Shown here one piece after another: positions 177-12,055 of a stretch of 21,515 nucleotides of DNA. Source of the DNA: a virus; the IMG/VR virus record IMGVR_UViG_3300027911_000075, positions 1 to 21,515 of that record; one strand, given 5' to 3'. The notes beneath the pieces are model-generated. The model was not told where the DNA came from. It did not search any database and saw nothing but the letters and a program-made list of their open reading frames with translations. How positions within the stretch are numbered: the first letter of the stretch is position 1; each line of letters starts with the position of its first letter. A program made the translations under genes and the position numbers.

Positions 177-393
177 TGTCCCATTTCTTGTCCCATTTTC
201 ATGTCCCATTTCTTGTCCCATTTTTCGGCGAGCGCGCCATGTCCCATTTCTTGTCCCATTTCTTGTCCCATTCAGTCCCATTCGTGTCCCATTTATGGGA
301 CAGGCCTGTTTTTTGTCCCATTTCTTGTCCCATTTTCTGTCCCATTCGGCCCCCCCCTAAGGGGGGCCGGAATGGGACAGAGAAAATGGGACA
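177..393. repeat. Iteron-like array of TGTCCCATT (about 12 direct, 3 inverted copies)
   Basis: The 9-mer TGTCCCATT occurs at 177, 189, 202, 214, 240, 252, 264, 285, 314, 326 and 338, with a one-mismatch copy (AGTCCCATT) at 274. Inverted copies (AATGGGACA) start at 371 and 385, with a one-mismatch copy (TATGGGACA) at 294. Start-to-start spacing is mostly 12-13 bp, with a double-length step of 26 between 214 and 240. The copies at 285 and 294 make the palindrome TGTCCCATTTATGGGACA (285-302). Tandem 9-12 bp repeats next to replication genes are typical of iterons bound by an initiator protein; a cluster of operators is the alternative. The frames that stay open through this stretch are by-products of the repeat and have no ribosome-binding site. 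Confidence 0.85.
337..380. other. Long fold-back stem at the right end of the iteron array
   Basis: CTGTCCCATT (337-346) pairs perfectly with AATGGGACAG (371-380). The pairing continues through CGG/CCGG (one bulged G) and six C-G pairs to a five-base loop (CCTAA), about 19 bp in all. On the right strand the stem is followed by AGAAAATGGGACA rather than a T-tract, so it does not look like an ordinary rho-independent terminator for rightward transcription. It joins the last two direct iterons to the inverted ones. Possible roles are a cruciform in a replication origin, an operator, or an RNA hairpin in the leader of the operon starting at 432. Confidence 0.7.
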
Positions 394-431: not shown

Positions 432-575
432 ATGCTACGTATAGTTCTTGAGGTGGCGGTGGCCGCGGTCTTGGGGTTCCTGCTGGTTCTGTGCTTCGGG
501 GGGTTGCTGTTCCTTAACCCCTACGTGGTCGTGGTTGCTAGCTCGTTGGGGCTGGCGGCGTGGGGCTGGCTTTGA
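432..575 (+). CDS. Tiny hydrophobic membrane protein (47 aa)
   Basis: The ATG follows a good Shine-Dalgarno site (AAAGGAG, 419-425, spacing 6). The 47-residue product is almost entirely hydrophobic: a segment around residues 5-28 (VAVAAVLGFLLVLCFGGLLF) and a second around 31-46, so it probably spans the membrane twice as a hairpin. It opens the rightward operon downstream of the iteron array. Its TGA overlaps the TTG start of the next gene, so the two are probably translationally coupled. Two consecutive tiny membrane proteins could act as a holin-like pair, a superinfection-exclusion pair or a membrane anchor for replication. None of these can be decided from sequence, and no family was recognised. 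Confidence 0.6.
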   Translation: MLRIVLEVAVAAVLGFLLVLCFGGLLFLNPYVVVVASSLGLAAWGWL

Positions 576-691
576 GCGGGCTCTGGTTGGCGGTGGGGGC
601 GGGGGTCCTGGTTGTGGCGCTGGCGGTCCAGCCCCTGATCTGGATCCCGGTGGCGCTGGCTGTGGTGGCGGTGGCGTGGAGGCTGCGATGA
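572..691 (+). CDS. Second tiny membrane protein (39 aa, TTG start)
   Basis: The start is TTG inside the TTGA overlap with the preceding stop. No ATG exists in this frame and the gene's TGA (689-691) overlaps the next ATG in the same ATGA manner. The product is 39 residues, nearly all Val, Ala, Leu, Gly and Trp, with two hydrophobic stretches separated by a QP bend near residues 20-21, and it ends with a basic WRLR. This gives an inside-positive C-terminus after a membrane hairpin. It resembles its upstream neighbour in size and design, though not in sequence. The existence of the gene is inferred from the linked overlaps on both sides; the function is unknown. Confidence 0.5.
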   Translation: MSGLWLAVGAGVLVVALAVQPLIWIPVALAVVAVAWRLR

Positions 692-1023
692 TCCCGGCGC
701 TGGTCCGGGTTAGGGCTCCATCGGAGGGGACGGTGTCCGGGTTGCGGGTTGCGGTATCCTCCGGTGGATTGATCCATGGTCTACTGGTTGCGGAGGATGC
801 GGCTATCGGGCTCTTCGGCGCCCGGATCCCGTTCATCACAATCAGCACAAGGACGGCGCTGGCGATCCTCAGGGCGCAGGAGGCGGGCACGGCGGCCGCC
901 CCGTGGGCGCGATGGCTGGGCGCGCTCTTGGAGCTGCTCGACCCCGGCCACCTGCAGGCCGCCATGCAGGCGGACTATGATCGGGCGACGCTCGTCCTTT
1001 ACTTGATACGGGGTGCGCAATGA
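688..1023 (+). CDS. Hypothetical protein (111 aa)
   Basis: The ATG at 688 overlaps the previous TGA, and its own TGA overlaps the ATG of the VRR-NUC gene, so it lies in the middle of the coupled chain. The frame stays open further upstream, but the junction and the clear neighbouring gene favour this start. The 111-residue product begins with a beta-rich stretch (residues 1-55), followed by an Ala/Leu-rich helical half with LGALLELLDPGHL around residue 80. I do not recognise the family. Its position next to a nuclease and a helicase suggests a role in phage DNA metabolism, which is inference only. Confidence 0.65.
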   Translation: MIPALVRVRAPSEGTVSGLRVAVSSGGLIHGLLVAEDAAIGLFGARIPFITISTRTALAILRAQEAGTAAAPWARWLGALLELLDPGHLQAAMQADYDRATLVLYLIRGAQ

Positions 1024-1514
1024 GTACGTGGTGGCGTAGGGGGCCCAAGGAGGCCGTGCTGGAGAGCTGGGCGGCGGAGCGCGCCCGGGAGCTGGGTGGC
1101 CGGCTGGAGAAGCTCCCGCCGACGATGGGCGAGAAGCACCGCCCGGACCGGGTGTTCGTCCACCCGCGCCGGCCTGCGGCCTATCTGGAGCTCAAGCGCC
1201 AAGGGGAGACCGCGACCCTTGAGCAGGAGTTCGTCCTCACCCGGCTGCGCGCCGAGGGCTACGTGGCCGGGTGGGCGAACACCCGGGAGGGCGTGGAGGT
1301 CTTCCTCAAGGCCGCGATGAAGCCCCCGCTGGTCATGGCGCTCGGGATCTGGCAGGAGGCACTCAAGGATCGGGAGGTCGAGGATGACAAGAAACGGGTT
1401 CCTAGCGGGCGTCGGCGCCGGGGTGATAGTGGGAACGCTGCTCTCCTGGCTGGTATTGGAGCCTCGCCTGCGGTCGCTGGTGGGGTCGGCGGTAGCGACC
1501 GGGTGCCGCGCTGA
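1020..1514 (+). CDS. VRR-NUC domain nuclease
   Basis: The 164-aa product carries the VRR-NUC version of the PD-(D/E)XK nuclease fold in its first 105 residues: PD at 42-43 (Asp43), ELK at 57-59 (Glu57 and Lys59) and Gln69 in a following helix. This matches the family pattern of PD, then ExK after about 13 residues, then Gln. Stand-alone phage VRR-NUC proteins are usually 90-130 aa and commonly sit beside an SNF2-type helicase, as here; they are thought to act in recombination or processing of branched DNA. The last 45 residues are low-complexity (Gly, Arg, Ser) and overlap another frame with a convincing membrane segment (1384). The stop overlaps the helicase ATG by one base (TGATG), which supports this end. 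Confidence 0.85.
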   Translation: MSTWWRRGPKEAVLESWAAERARELGGRLEKLPPTMGEKHRPDRVFVHPRRPAAYLELKRQGETATLEQEFVLTRLRAEGYVAGWANTREGVEVFLKAAMKPPLVMALGIWQEALKDREVEDDKKRVPSGRRRRGDSGNAALLAGIGASPAVAGGVGGSDRVPR

Positions 1515-2953
1515 TGGCGACACCGTCGTCACGTACCGCCCTCTACCCTCACCAAGCTATCGCCTTGGAAAGGTGGATGGACCAGCCAAGGTTGGGGCTG
1601 GCGCTCCAGCCGGGGCTGGGCAAGACCCGCACGGTGCTGGAAGCCATACGGCTGTCGGTGGACGTCCGGCCGTGGCTCGTGGTGGCGCCCAAGCGGGTGG
1701 TGGCGACCGTGTGGCGGCAGGAGAACGAAAAGTGGGGGGCGCTGCCGCCGGGGGCCATCGTGGCGCTGGGGTCGGAGGACTTCCGGCTCGGGCTGGTGCC
1801 AAGGAAGCCCAGCCGGACCGATCCAAGCCCGAAGGGCCTTGAGCGGGGGTTCAAGGACCTTGCGGCCACGCGGGCGCACCTGAGGGCCGTTATCGAGGCC
1901 CACAGGGTGGTCGTGGTGTCGTGGGACTATGTGTTTTGGCTCGCTGCCGCCGTCGTGACCGCGCGCCCGGTCTTCGGGGGCCTCGTCCTCGACGAGTCCC
2001 ACTACGTCAAGGACCAAGGGACCCAGCGCTTCAAGGCGGTGCGCCGGTTGGCCGCCGGGTGCGTGATGCGGACCGCGCTCAACGGGACCCCGATCGCCAA
2101 CGGGTGGGAGGACACGTGGTCCCAGTCCTTCCTGCTGGATCTCGGCGAGACCTTTGGGCGGACACTGACCGATTTCCGGCGTCGGTTCCTGTCCGCCTAC
2201 GTGGATGAGCATAACCGGGTCAAGTACGGCGAGCCCTCACAGGCCCAGCGCGGGGAGCTGGAGGCGCTCTTCCCCAAGCTCTGGCTCCCCATGACCGCCA
2301 AGGGCTGGGTCGCGCTCCCGGACCTGATCGTCAACGACATCGTCGTCGAGCTCGATAGCGCGCCCATGGGGACCGCGAGCAGGCTCATGCGGGCCGCGCT
2401 CGCTGACCTGCCGGACGGAACGCAAGTGCTGCCCCCCAACGTGGCGGCGGGGATCGGCAAGGCCCTGCAGGTCTGTCAGGGCCGGGCCTACGTGGACGAC
2501 AAGGTCGTGGTGGTGCACAACGCCAAGCGGGACGCGCTCGCCGAGCTCTCGCAGGAGATCGAGGGCGGGGCGCTGGTCTTCTACGAGTACCGGCACGACA
2601 TGGACGCTATACGGCAGGCGCTGGGCGACCGGGTGGGCTTTATCGAGGACCCCGGCGCGCAGGGGGCGTGGCAGGCCGGGCGGGTCCAGTTCCTGGCCGC
2701 GCACCCGGCCTCGATGGCGGTCGGGCTGAACCTGCAGAGCCGGGGCAACACCGTGATCTGGTACGGGCTCACGTGGGACTCGTTCCTGTACCAGCAGGCC
2801 AACGCCCGGGTGCACCGGCTGGGCAACGAGCACCCGAGCGTGATCGTGCACCGTATCGTGAGCGCGCACCCCGTGGAGCGTATGCAGGCCCGCGCGCTGT
2901 TGGGGAAGATGAATCTACTTTCAGCCGTAATGGCACTCAAGGGGGAACTGTGA
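1514..2953 (+). CDS. SNF2/DEAD-type DNA helicase
   Basis: This 479-aa superfamily 2 ATPase has the helicase motifs in order: a Q-motif-like YPHQ near residue 11, Walker A PGLGKT at 33-38, motif Ia VVAPKRV near 56-62, motif II DESH at 160-163, and motif III NGTPIANG at 190-197. The C-terminal half contains ALVFYEY (motif IV-like), GLNLQSR (motif V) and QQANARVHRLG (motif VI, arginine finger). The DESH box and the QQANARxHRxG signature point to the SNF2-like branch common in phage genomes. It probably translocates on duplex DNA during replication or recombination alongside the VRR-NUC protein encoded just upstream. The start is set by the TGATG overlap. The length is complete for the phage form. 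Confidence 0.95.
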   Translation: MATPSSRTALYPHQAIALERWMDQPRLGLALQPGLGKTRTVLEAIRLSVDVRPWLVVAPKRVVATVWRQENEKWGALPPGAIVALGSEDFRLGLVPRKPSRTDPSPKGLERGFKDLAATRAHLRAVIEAHRVVVVSWDYVFWLAAAVVTARPVFGGLVLDESHYVKDQGTQRFKAVRRLAAGCVMRTALNGTPIANGWEDTWSQSFLLDLGETFGRTLTDFRRRFLSAYVDEHNRVKYGEPSQAQRGELEALFPKLWLPMTAKGWVALPDLIVNDIVVELDSAPMGTASRLMRAALADLPDGTQVLPPNVAAGIGKALQVCQGRAYVDDKVVVVHNAKRDALAELSQEIEGGALVFYEYRHDMDAIRQALGDRVGFIEDPGAQGAWQAGRVQFLAAHPASMAVGLNLQSRGNTVIWYGLTWDSFLYQQANARVHRLGNEHPSVIVHRIVSAHPVERMQARALLGKMNLLSAVMALKGEL

Positions 2954-3444
2954 GCGGAAACCTGATCACCCGCGTCCTGCGCGCGGAGCAGTCGTCGGAC
3001 CTGAGCGAGGACGCCGGGGACGTGGATGTCGTGCGCGCGGTCGGCGCGGCCGGACTACGGCGCCGGCTTGGGTCCTACCTGCCCCGGTTCCTTGCCAGCG
3101 ACGGCCGGGACTACCGGCAGACGATCATCGACACCGTGGCGGGCGCGCTCCGCTCGGAGTACCCGAAGCTCACCGAGACCCAGCGGGTGGCGGTGGCCAC
3201 GTGCGCCACCTACCTGTACCTGAAGCCCCGATGCCCGGCGTGCCATGGCCGGGGCTATGAGCTGATGCCGGACGCGCCGAAGCTCTCGGACGTCTTCTGC
3301 AGGGTATGCAACGGGAGCGGCCGCAACGCGACCGGGGAGGAGTTCAAAGAAATACGCCCAGCACTCGGCTGGGCGCAGAACCTCATCGAGCAGTCGGCCG
3401 AGCGCTACAGTGTAGCGGTCGGTCGAAAGCTCGGGCGGGACTAG
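2950..3444 (+). CDS. Zinc-finger protein resembling lambda Q antitermination protein
   Basis: The GTG start lies in the GTGA overlap with the helicase stop; the frame is open upstream only as a shadow of the helicase. The 164-aa product has two CxxCxGxG knuckles: CPACHGRG (Cys95, Cys98) and CRVCNGSG (Cys117, Cys120). They are preceded by a helical region and an ATCATYLYLKPR segment and followed by a helix ending at the C-terminus. Size, paired knuckles, spacing and flanking helices recall the Q-type antiterminators of lambdoid phages, which load on RNA polymerase at the late promoter. DnaJ-like zinc domains share the knuckles, so a general zinc-binding protein is the alternative. It is the last gene of the early rightward operon, a fitting place for a late regulator. 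Confidence 0.6.
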   Translation: MSGNLITRVLRAEQSSDLSEDAGDVDVVRAVGAAGLRRRLGSYLPRFLASDGRDYRQTIIDTVAGALRSEYPKLTETQRVAVATCATYLYLKPRCPACHGRGYELMPDAPKLSDVFCRVCNGSGRNATGEEFKEIRPALGWAQNLIEQSAERYSVAVGRKLGRD

Positions 3445-6668: not shown

Positions 6669-6916
6669 GGTGACGGCCTTTCATGTTGGTGATGATTGGG
6701 TAATCGGTGGTACGGAACGGATCTTGAGGCCTTTCGGGGGGCTTGTGTGTCATAAACCTGCAGAAAGCAATAAAATTGCGTCTTCGATCAAAAGACGCAA
6801 TAATCTTGCTTCAGGGTCGGCGTTGCCAGTCGCGTGCCATTGCCTATTGACTACGGGTCATTTATCCTGATTTTCGACGCACTCATAGAGTGCTAACCGC
6901 AACCCGGCAATCCACG
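6669..6916. promoter_or_regulatory. Divergent intergenic region, relatively AT-rich
   Basis: This region separates the leftward operon from the rightward gene at 6917, so promoters for both directions should be here. It is visibly richer in A+T than its surroundings, most of all at 6750-6880. TTGACT at 6847-6852 could be a -35 box for rightward transcription, but no good -10 box stands 16-18 bases downstream. I could not pick a convincing leftward promoter either. The long palindrome at 6765-6811 is the main feature. Confidence 0.5.
6765..6811. promoter_or_regulatory. Long interrupted palindrome (operator or terminator-like hairpin)
   Basis: ATTGCGTCTT (6775-6784) and AAGACGCAAT (6792-6801) are perfect 10-bp arms around a seven-base loop. 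Outside them AAGCAA (6765-6770) and TTGCTT (6806-6811) pair again after four unpaired bases on each side. Read leftward the inner hairpin is followed by TTTATTGCTTT, so it could end leftward transcription. Its place in a divergent promoter region also suits a repressor-binding site. Confidence 0.65.
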
Positions 6917-10177: not shown

Positions 10178-10671
10178 TGGAGCGCGGTCACCACAAGAAC
10201 AAGTTCAACACCACCGGCGAGGGCGATAAGCCCGTGGGCTATACCACGTCCACCGCTCACGAGCCCAGCGTGGCCAACCAGATCGGCGGCAGCGGCCGCA
10301 CAACCCGCGGGAGCCGCGGCCGGGGGCTGAATTTCCAGCTCTTGGCGGACGTGCTCGAGCGCGAAAGCGAGGACCCCAACGGTCTTAACATCGCGGAGGC
10401 GATCGTCACCGCCCTCAAGGGGGGCGACCTCGACCCCAAGACCAAGCTCCTGGCCCAGCTCGAGCTCCTGCAGTACATCCAGCCCAAGCTCAAGGCGATC
10501 GAGCACAAGGGCAAGGTCGAGCTCGATTCCGAGACCGCCGACGCGCGGCTGAACTACCTCTTGAGCAAACTTGGAGCACCCGGTGGCAATAAACCTGGAC
10601 AACCTGACGGCCAACGAGAAGCGGGAGCTGATCGAGCTGTGGGGTCTGGCCGAGACGAACCGCAAGCGTAA
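10177..10671 (+). CDS. terS: Terminase small subunit (probable)
   Basis: The ATG at 10177 shares one base with the previous TGA (TGATG). The 164-aa product has a polar, basic N-terminus and a GRTTRGSRGRGLNF stretch. A helical core follows, with IAEAIVTALKGGDLDPKTKLLAQLELLQYIQPKLKAIEH, typical of the helical small subunits that recognise phage DNA and feed it to the large subunit. The assignment rests on this core and on its position directly upstream of and overlapping terL. The polar C-terminus overlaps the first 89 bases of terL, which is long for this genome; the last residues may be non-essential. Confidence 0.75.
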   Translation: MERGHHKNKFNTTGEGDKPVGYTTSTAHEPSVANQIGGSGRTTRGSRGRGLNFQLLADVLERESEDPNGLNIAEAIVTALKGGDLDPKTKLLAQLELLQYIQPKLKAIEHKGKVELDSETADARLNYLLSKLGAPGGNKPGQPDGQREAGADRAVGSGRDEPQA

Positions 10672-12055
10672 TTGGCTCGCGACCTATCGGCCCTACAAGA
10701 AGCAGATCGCGTTCCACAACGCGGGCGCTCACTTCCGCGAGCGCTGCTTCCTGGCCGCCAACCAGTCCGGCAAGACCCTGTCGGCGGCCGCCGAGATCGC
10801 GATCCACGCCACCGGGCTCTATCCGGACTGGTGGGAGGGCTGGCGGTTTAACCGACCAACGGTCGGGATCGTCGGCTCCGAGTCCTTTGACCTGAACAAG
10901 CGCGGCCTGCAGCGGCTGCTGCTGGGGCGCGCGGACCAGAAGGAGGAGTGGGGCACGGGGACGATCCCCTACGCCCAGCTGGTGCGCTATACGATGGTCC
11001 AGGGGGTGCAGGACGCGGTCGCAACGATCACCGTCAAGCACGTCCCCAGCGGGGAGAACAGCGTCATCCAGCTCGCTTCCTACGAGCAGGGGCGCACCAA
11101 GTGGCAGGCCGACACCGTGGACTACGTGTTCATGGACGAGGAGCCGCCCAGCGACATATACTTCGAGGCCCTTACCCGGACTAACGTCTCGGGGGGCCCG
11201 ATAGCCATGACCTTCACGCCATTGTTGGGCGCCTCCCAGGTCGTGCGGCTGTTCCTCCCGATAACGGGGGAGCGGGCGCCCTCCCGGGAGCTGGTCACAA
11301 TGACGATCGACGACGCCGAGCACTACTCCCCGGAGGAGCGGGCGGCGATCATCGCGCAATACCCCGAGCACGAACGCGAGGCGCGCGCCTTCGGGCGCCC
11401 CGTTTTGGGGAGCGGTATGGTGTTCCCGGTGGCCGAGTCCGCCGTCCGGGTCGAGCCCTTCCAGATCCCCGACTACTGGGGACGGGTGCTGGGGATGGAC
11501 TTTGGGTACGACCACCCGACCGCGGGCGCTTGGTGCGCCTACGACGCCGATACGGACACGATCTACGTCTTCAAGACCTATCGGCGGTCCCGGGCGACGA
11601 TCAGCGAGAACGCCGCGAGCCTGCGGGCGCCAATGCCATGGATACCGGTCGCGTGGCCCCATGACGGGCTCCAGCACGACAAGCAGGCCGGGCGGGCGCT
11701 CAAGGACCTGTACAAGGACGCGGGGCTCAATATGGTCCCCAAGCACGCGACCTTTACCGAGAACGACATCAGCTCGTTCTCGTTCGAGGCCGGCATCACC
11801 GAGATGCTCGATCGGATGCAGACCGGGCGCCTCAAGGTGTTCTCGACCTGCACCGAGTTCTTCGAGGAGATGCGGGCCTACCACCGCAAGGACGGTAAGG
11901 TCGTCAAGGTCCTGGACGACGTCATAAGTGCCGTCCGGTACGCGATGATGATGCGCCGCTATGCCCGCTCCAAGCAAGAGCTGGCACCGCAAAAAACAAT
12001 CGGGGGCACGCCCCTGGTCTCGTTCGGGGTCCTTGATCCCGAGACGGGGTATTGA
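10583..12055 (+). CDS. terL: Terminase large subunit
   Basis: I prefer the GTG at 10583, seven bases after GGAG; a TTG at 10571 would add four residues. The 490-aa motor-nuclease has Walker A ANQSGKT at 59-65, Walker B VFMDEE at 182-187 and a coupling region with AMTFTPLLG. The C-terminal RNase H-like nuclease starts at MDFGYDHP (Asp306), and VLDDVISAVRY supplies acidic residues 445-446. It packages DNA through the portal and cuts concatemers. It is complete in length for the family and is followed by a strong terminator. Confidence 0.95.
   Translation: MAINLDNLTANEKRELIELWGLAETNRKRNWLATYRPYKKQIAFHNAGAHFRERCFLAANQSGKTLSAAAEIAIHATGLYPDWWEGWRFNRPTVGIVGSESFDLNKRGLQRLLLGRADQKEEWGTGTIPYAQLVRYTMVQGVQDAVATITVKHVPSGENSVIQLASYEQGRTKWQADTVDYVFMDEEPPSDIYFEALTRTNVSGGPIAMTFTPLLGASQVVRLFLPITGERAPSRELVTMTIDDAEHYSPEERAAIIAQYPEHEREARAFGRPVLGSGMVFPVAESAVRVEPFQIPDYWGRVLGMDFGYDHPTAGAWCAYDADTDTIYVFKTYRRSRATISENAASLRAPMPWIPVAWPHDGLQHDKQAGRALKDLYKDAGLNMVPKHATFTENDISSFSFEAGITEMLDRMQTGRLKVFSTCTEFFEEMRAYHRKDGKVVKVLDDVISAVRYAMMMRRYARSKQELAPQKTIGGTPLVSFGVLDPETGY

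Follow-up and report, generated by a model that had tools for sequence, protein, structure and literature searches.

In the SaPI Rep and SCCmec Cch2 systems, the origin consists of short repeats located directly 3' of the replication gene. According to PMC7581432, SaPI Rep uses its C-terminal domain to recognise iterons immediately behind its own gene, and binding of Cch2 to such a site is shown there. In PMC4234260, the pRN1 origin is a stem-loop 3' of the primase-helicase gene, the same is suggested for Bordetella phage BIP-1 (to which BPP-1 is called nearly identical), the alpha protein of phage P4 is presented as a winged-helix initiator that binds repeats of its origin, and an AT-rich stretch is ascribed to typical plasmid origins. 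The annotated origin of Streptococcus phage Sfi21 (NC_000872, 34487-34784) lies in non-coding DNA with repeats, immediately after a gene annotated as a putative primase. Origins are known for a minority of environmental phages.

The window, i.e. the whole stretch of viral DNA analysed here (21,515 nucleotides), displays a comparable layout at its left end, where an array of repeats follows immediately on a gene truncated by the contig edge, and where all the genes on either side of the array run in the + direction. The features of this region are as follows (strand given where one applies):

3 to 176, + strand: TGA stop and last 57 residues of a truncated gene whose product is presumed to be a replication initiator (frame open to the contig edge)
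177 to 393: putative iterons, with TGTCCCATT present 15 times, in forward orientation in 12 cases and reverse in 3 (mismatch search against shuffles; core conservation)
177 to 346, + strand: direct-repeat part, 12 forward copies and the inverted copy at 294-302 (repeat search)
285 to 302: palindrome TGTCCCATTTATGGGACA formed by two abutting copies (sequence; hairpin in folding and in the terminator scan)
326 to 393: inverted repeat of 68 bp (predicted DNA fold of 280-400 at -41.9 kcal/mol, z -9.45)
347 to 370: GC-rich hairpin core CGGCCCCCCCCTAAGGGGGGCCGG, candidate terminator stem or origin stem-loop (sequence and fold)
432 to 575, + strand: small ORF of 47 aa that is preceded by an AGGAG-like site and looks hydrophobic on visual inspection (sequence; no family match)
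688 to 1023, + strand: ORF of 111 aa with a weak match to phrog_34710, whose function is not known (E 0.0012)
1020 to 1514, + strand: nuclease-like ORF where relatives have a VRR-NUC gene (phrog_93 endonuclease, E 6e-10)
1514 to 2953, + strand: SNF2-type helicase (PF00176, E 2.6e-10; phrog_62 DNA helicase, E 2e-91)

When TGTCCCATT was searched with up to one mismatch, 16 matches were found in the whole window, 15 of them inside 177-393, compared to a mean of 2.6 and a maximum of 7 in 100 shuffled windows. The fifteen copies of a 9-mer that a previous sequence-only reading had counted were all recovered, 13 of them exact and two with one mismatch (274-282, which begins AGTCCC, and the minus-strand copy 294-302, which ends CATA). 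Its switch from direct to inverted orientation at the right end is real, the twelve forward copies running from 177 to 346 and two of the three reverse copies lying at 371-379 and 385-393, but the third (294-302) is inside the array, where it abuts the copy at 285-293 to give the palindrome. The start-to-start steps (12, 13, 12, 26, 12, 12, 10, 11, 9, 20, 12, 12, 33 and 14 bp) have a dominant period of 12 bp; the phasing at 12-13 bp ascribed to most of the array holds for 7 of the 14 steps, the rest ranging from 9 to 33 bp. Two features came in addition to that reading, namely a 68-bp terminal inverted repeat and the abutment of copy 1 on the stop codon, the base immediately after the TGA (174-176) being the first base of the copy (177).

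The 15 copies show 2 mismatches over 135 core positions, but their spacers differ in length and sequence, a pattern that resembles a set of conserved binding sites rather than a tandem repeat produced by slippage. This bears on a rival possibility, a minisatellite that arose through replication slippage and plays no part in binding. Slippage would leave the spacers as uniform as the core, whereas those of the window measure 0 to 24 bp and the orientation of the copies changes. Such a minisatellite would be in keeping with the three spaced 9-mer copies present in each of 46 bacterial and archaeal genome stretches, with the near-identical 8-17 bp units that make up many of the chromosomal arrays examined and with the 12-bp period, dominant in the window too; it is nevertheless considered very improbable. 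The chromosomal 9-mer arrays examined have mostly uniform spacers, unlike the window array, and no link to replication was seen in the minisatellite-like ones among them.

The GC content of the array is 51% compared to 65% overall, and the 60-bp segment starting at 281 (43% GC) is among the 15 lowest, lower ones being found near 6746 and 19541. SaPI origins have an AT-rich unwinding stretch within or next to their repeats; in the 60-bp GC scan of the window, no clear element of this kind was seen in the array, the lowest-GC stretches lying elsewhere. GC skew, put forward earlier as a possible support for an origin, was uninformative, no independent origin sign being seen in the window.

At the right end of the array, the 68-bp inverted repeat (326-393) is composed of two forward and two reverse copies flanking the GC-rich hairpin. 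The DNA fold predicted for 280-400 (-41.9 kcal/mol, z -9.45) was not equalled in stability by any of 200 shuffles, and the same end forms a very stable stem as RNA too. This large stem sits 3' of the cut-off gene and, if that gene is a replication gene as presumed, would resemble the stem-loop behind the replication gene of pRN1 and the one suggested for BIP-1; according to PMC4234260, pRN1 is without iterons, whereas the stem of the window is built of them. The hairpin could act either as a terminator or as a structured part of an origin. The first of these roles is part of another explanation, in which a phage regulator would bind the copies as an operator and the hairpin would serve as terminator or attenuator, together controlling the operon at 432-3444. 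The + direction of all the genes on both sides, the stability of the stem in RNA and the six terminator-like sites found in 1-1100 (shuffle mean 1.4) are consistent with it, this excess being due in part to the repeats themselves, which form stems; no site at the 347-370 stem was listed in that scan. Usual operators, however, have far fewer copies than 15 over 217 bp, no sigma-70-like promoter was found in 1-1100 by a scan that is weak for GC-rich hosts, and the common neighbour of comparable replication-side arrays is the upstream replication gene. Control of the operon by an operator is therefore regarded as unlikely.

The cut-off gene itself (3-176) is presumed to encode a replication initiator from its position only. 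Its 57-residue tail had no match in Pfam, PHROGs, NCBIfam or PDB sequences; tblastn against phages and plasmids gave a best E of about 5, none of the 67 pattern matches in viral contigs was a relative, and none was found by relaxed tblastn or phmmer among the fetched loci and their ORFs. The AlphaFold2 model of the tail is all helical and of low confidence (pLDDT 65), and hhalign gave a probability of 0.2% against the C-terminal domains of A2, a class of initiators encoded beside such arrays. The winged-helix-like appearance attributed to this tail was thus not supported by family, PDB, fold or profile comparison. For the C-terminal domain of the Prim-Pol/PriCT_1 class, the predicted fold (pLDDT 68) has helices and strands in an order compatible with a winged helix, but Foldseek gave no match for this model at E 0.001 and the fold is given no weight here. 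The SaPI/SCC gene is an initiator-helicase, where the window offers the 57-residue tail only, and the Cch2 iteron is AAGTG compared to TGTCCCATT here; P4 alpha can be set beside the window, by its description in PMC4234260, as an initiator binding origin repeats. Since only these 57 residues of the upstream gene remain and they are without a match, the case for an origin is a comparative one.

The recurrence of the word was followed in viral contigs, where two 9-mer copies 2-6 bp apart occur in 60 stretches, compared to 8 for the reversed letters. Three-copy searches were done with the 7-mer TGTCCCA and with its reversed control, and the kinds of cluster, not the raw counts, were compared among the matches listed; 114 of the 119 TGTCCCA stretches were analysed, loci from the 9-mer search (L011, L014 and L015 among these) being left out. 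Among the matches listed, mixed orientation was seen in 73 of 114 TGTCCCA loci and 9 of 120 reversed-word loci, steps that included values not divisible by three in 88 of 114 and 21 of 120, and a location inside a long ORF in 46 of 114 and 97 of 120 respectively. Therefore, the reversed word forms mostly coding repeats and TGTCCCA mostly does not. Four of the 120 control loci lie behind replication genes, all four belonging to the 21 loci with mixed orientation or non-three steps, an indication that this layout also occurs with other iteron words.

Among the matches listed, 38 of the 73 mixed-orientation TGTCCCA arrays are at most 400 bp from the 3' end of a replication protein. By Pfam, these proteins are of the Prim-Pol/PriCT_1/AAA_25 (12), VapE (10), PriCT_2/AAA_25 (7) and DUF5906 (4) types, with one array each for DUF927 with a Cch HTH_56 domain, AAA_25 alone, Prim-Pol/AAA_25, zinc-finger/AAA_25 and DUF3987. 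A count by tblastn placed 39 of the 73 arrays behind a replication protein, compared to a mean of 5.65 and a maximum of 12 when arrays were placed at random within the same loci (200 trials); the representatives used for classification were taken from these same loci, many of which are related, so the counts reflect a pattern rather than separate occurrences. Arrays of the Prim-Pol/PriCT_1 class begin about 1-7 bp after the stop codon, much as in the window.

Because similar TGTCCCA arrays sit behind replication proteins in other phages, the array of the window is best read as a phage replication origin of the type lying directly 3' of its own initiator gene, a reading to which we give a probability of roughly 0.7 on the basis of sequence comparison. 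Between the two roles initially proposed, origin or control site of the operon, it is the origin that these comparisons (38 and 39 of 73 arrays) favour. In such an origin, the cut-off gene would encode the initiator, whose C-terminal domain would bind the copies of the array; several initiator molecules would then assemble on it, the helicase part of the initiator would open the DNA beside the array, and priming would start there. A further effect of the array may be to reduce or end transcription of the operon that passes through it.

Replication genes are not the only neighbours of the word: 25 of the 73 arrays have a terminase context, the remaining 10 being accompanied by a farther replication gene (2) or by neither (8). 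These arrays count against the origin, as do the chromosomal minisatellites with the same 9-mer. In these 25 loci (L100, L112, L174 and 22 others), the same word occupies a cos/pac-like place. A packaging or terminase recognition site, as the place of the 7-mer in these other phages suggests, would agree with this context and with the 9 of the 25 arrays found at the start of a small-terminase-like ORF. In the window, however, adjacency to a terminase is lacking, the large terminase (10571-12055) being about 10 kb from the array, and an A at position -1 precedes 4 of the 15 copies compared to 78-82% of those in terminase context; a packaging role for the array is thus considered very unlikely. 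Portal-type (12554) and capsid-like (17940) genes are also far downstream of the array, and two endonuclease VII genes (PF02945; 7566-8069 and 9676-10005) were noted before the terminase.

The sequence-only reading had described the word as one without a link to a described initiator. The present comparison links it by position to several initiator families, and TGTCCCA or TGGGACA named as an iteron was not found in a literature search covering titles and abstract openings. The layout of an array behind an initiator is already known from the literature; the recurrence of TGTCCCA behind unlike initiators, absent from that same search, is the part worth following. One tentative interpretation, possible but doubtful at present, is that phage initiators of several unlike kinds (Prim-Pol/AAA_25, VapE and DUF5906 of the SF3 type, DUF927 and DUF3987) read TGTCCCA as a common iteron, so that origin and DNA-binding domain would move between helicase families as a swappable unit, the word also having been adopted near terminase genes. 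If unlike initiators do share TGTCCCA, the question is whether the DNA-binding domain was exchanged between helicase families or the word arose repeatedly. A word recurring behind several classes of replication genes is a direct pointer to candidate origins in metagenomic phages and gives a means of testing which protein domain reads the array.

Other words were seen in similar places. A survey of VapE genes, whose sample is biased to the query used, showed at least 5 copies of one 7-mer in 13 of 80 flanks, TGTCCCA leading in 5 of them. Most of the remaining flanks (most of L353-L422) come from one clade of VapE proteins, about 738 aa long, whose tails resemble EEPCFDD and whose genes have no array behind them; the origin of this clade, if iteron-based, must be elsewhere than behind the gene. 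In L414, L416 and L423-L427, different repeat words stand behind the VapE gene (TGACCA, TGTCCA, GTCCCTA, TCCGTCC, GTCCAC and TGTTCTA).

The operon downstream of the array, described earlier as a replication operon, does contain a VRR-NUC-like nuclease, which has no Pfam match above cut-off, and an SNF2 helicase. The ORF that follows (2950-3444) weakly matches DnaJ-type zinc and antitermination Q-like families. The order of array, nuclease and SNF2 helicase, behind a replication gene, is found in Acutalibacter phage Fontainebleau (helicase gene, GGTAACG array, endonuclease, SNF2-like helicase) and in Brevibacillus phage Emery (VapE, GTAACA copies, VRR-NUC, SNF2), from which the window differs by two extra small ORFs between array and nuclease and by its iteron word. 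Of the six named SNF2 phages examined, these two alone have an array there, which counts against the origin reading; in Croceibacter phage P2559Y, VapE and VRR-NUC genes abut, and the other three are without an annotated VapE at that place. In viral contig L071, VapE is followed by TGTCTCA copies and, farther downstream, by an SNF2 relative, and in Sfi21 the repeat word is AGTAAC/GTTACT and the neighbouring genes are unlike those of the window. Since the words of Fontainebleau, Emery, L071 and Sfi21 all differ, the iteron word varies by lineage while the layout stays.

A terminase search for relatives of the window gave 41 loci, of which 35 records were searched for the paired 9-mer and 24 for the SNF2 helicase. 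The pair was found in none of the 35, and the helicase was absent from 23 of the 24, all relatives without the pair, which therefore have another replication module. This set accordingly did not give the result that would have spoken against a role of the array, namely related phages that lack the repeats while keeping the genes and starting replication elsewhere. The best-scoring named relatives by terminase are Rhizobium, Achromobacter and Microcystis phages (about 49-56% identity); DNA replication is marked in the Rhizobium phage on an HTH protein and perhaps one more, and no gene of its full annotation is annotated as a replicative primase or helicase. One record (L306, 19.7 kb) has a terminase identical to that of the window and no paired copies, 2.2 kb upstream of the terminase being covered.

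Lastly, repeats were observed in other settings. BPP-1 has four copies of the AACGAGGC word between its primase gene and its endonuclease and terminase genes, the repeats occurring as inverted pairs (L490:4561-5260). In Chloroflexus islandicus (L480:5185-5503), TGTCCCATTCGT units lie upstream of ORFs resembling, by eye, ribosomal proteins S12 and S7 and EF-G, and chromosomal TGTCCCA arrays were seen near ORFs that look by eye like IS110-type (L449:4924-4981) and REP-associated (L469:2175-2233) transposases. In the Bacteroidales MAG RGIG9971, TGTCCCATT arrays are present on twelve contigs (L438, L442, L445, L452, L453, L465, L468, L472, L473, L475, L476 and L478) as dispersed repeats, the three sequences examined (L442, L453 and L465) holding inverted copies too.
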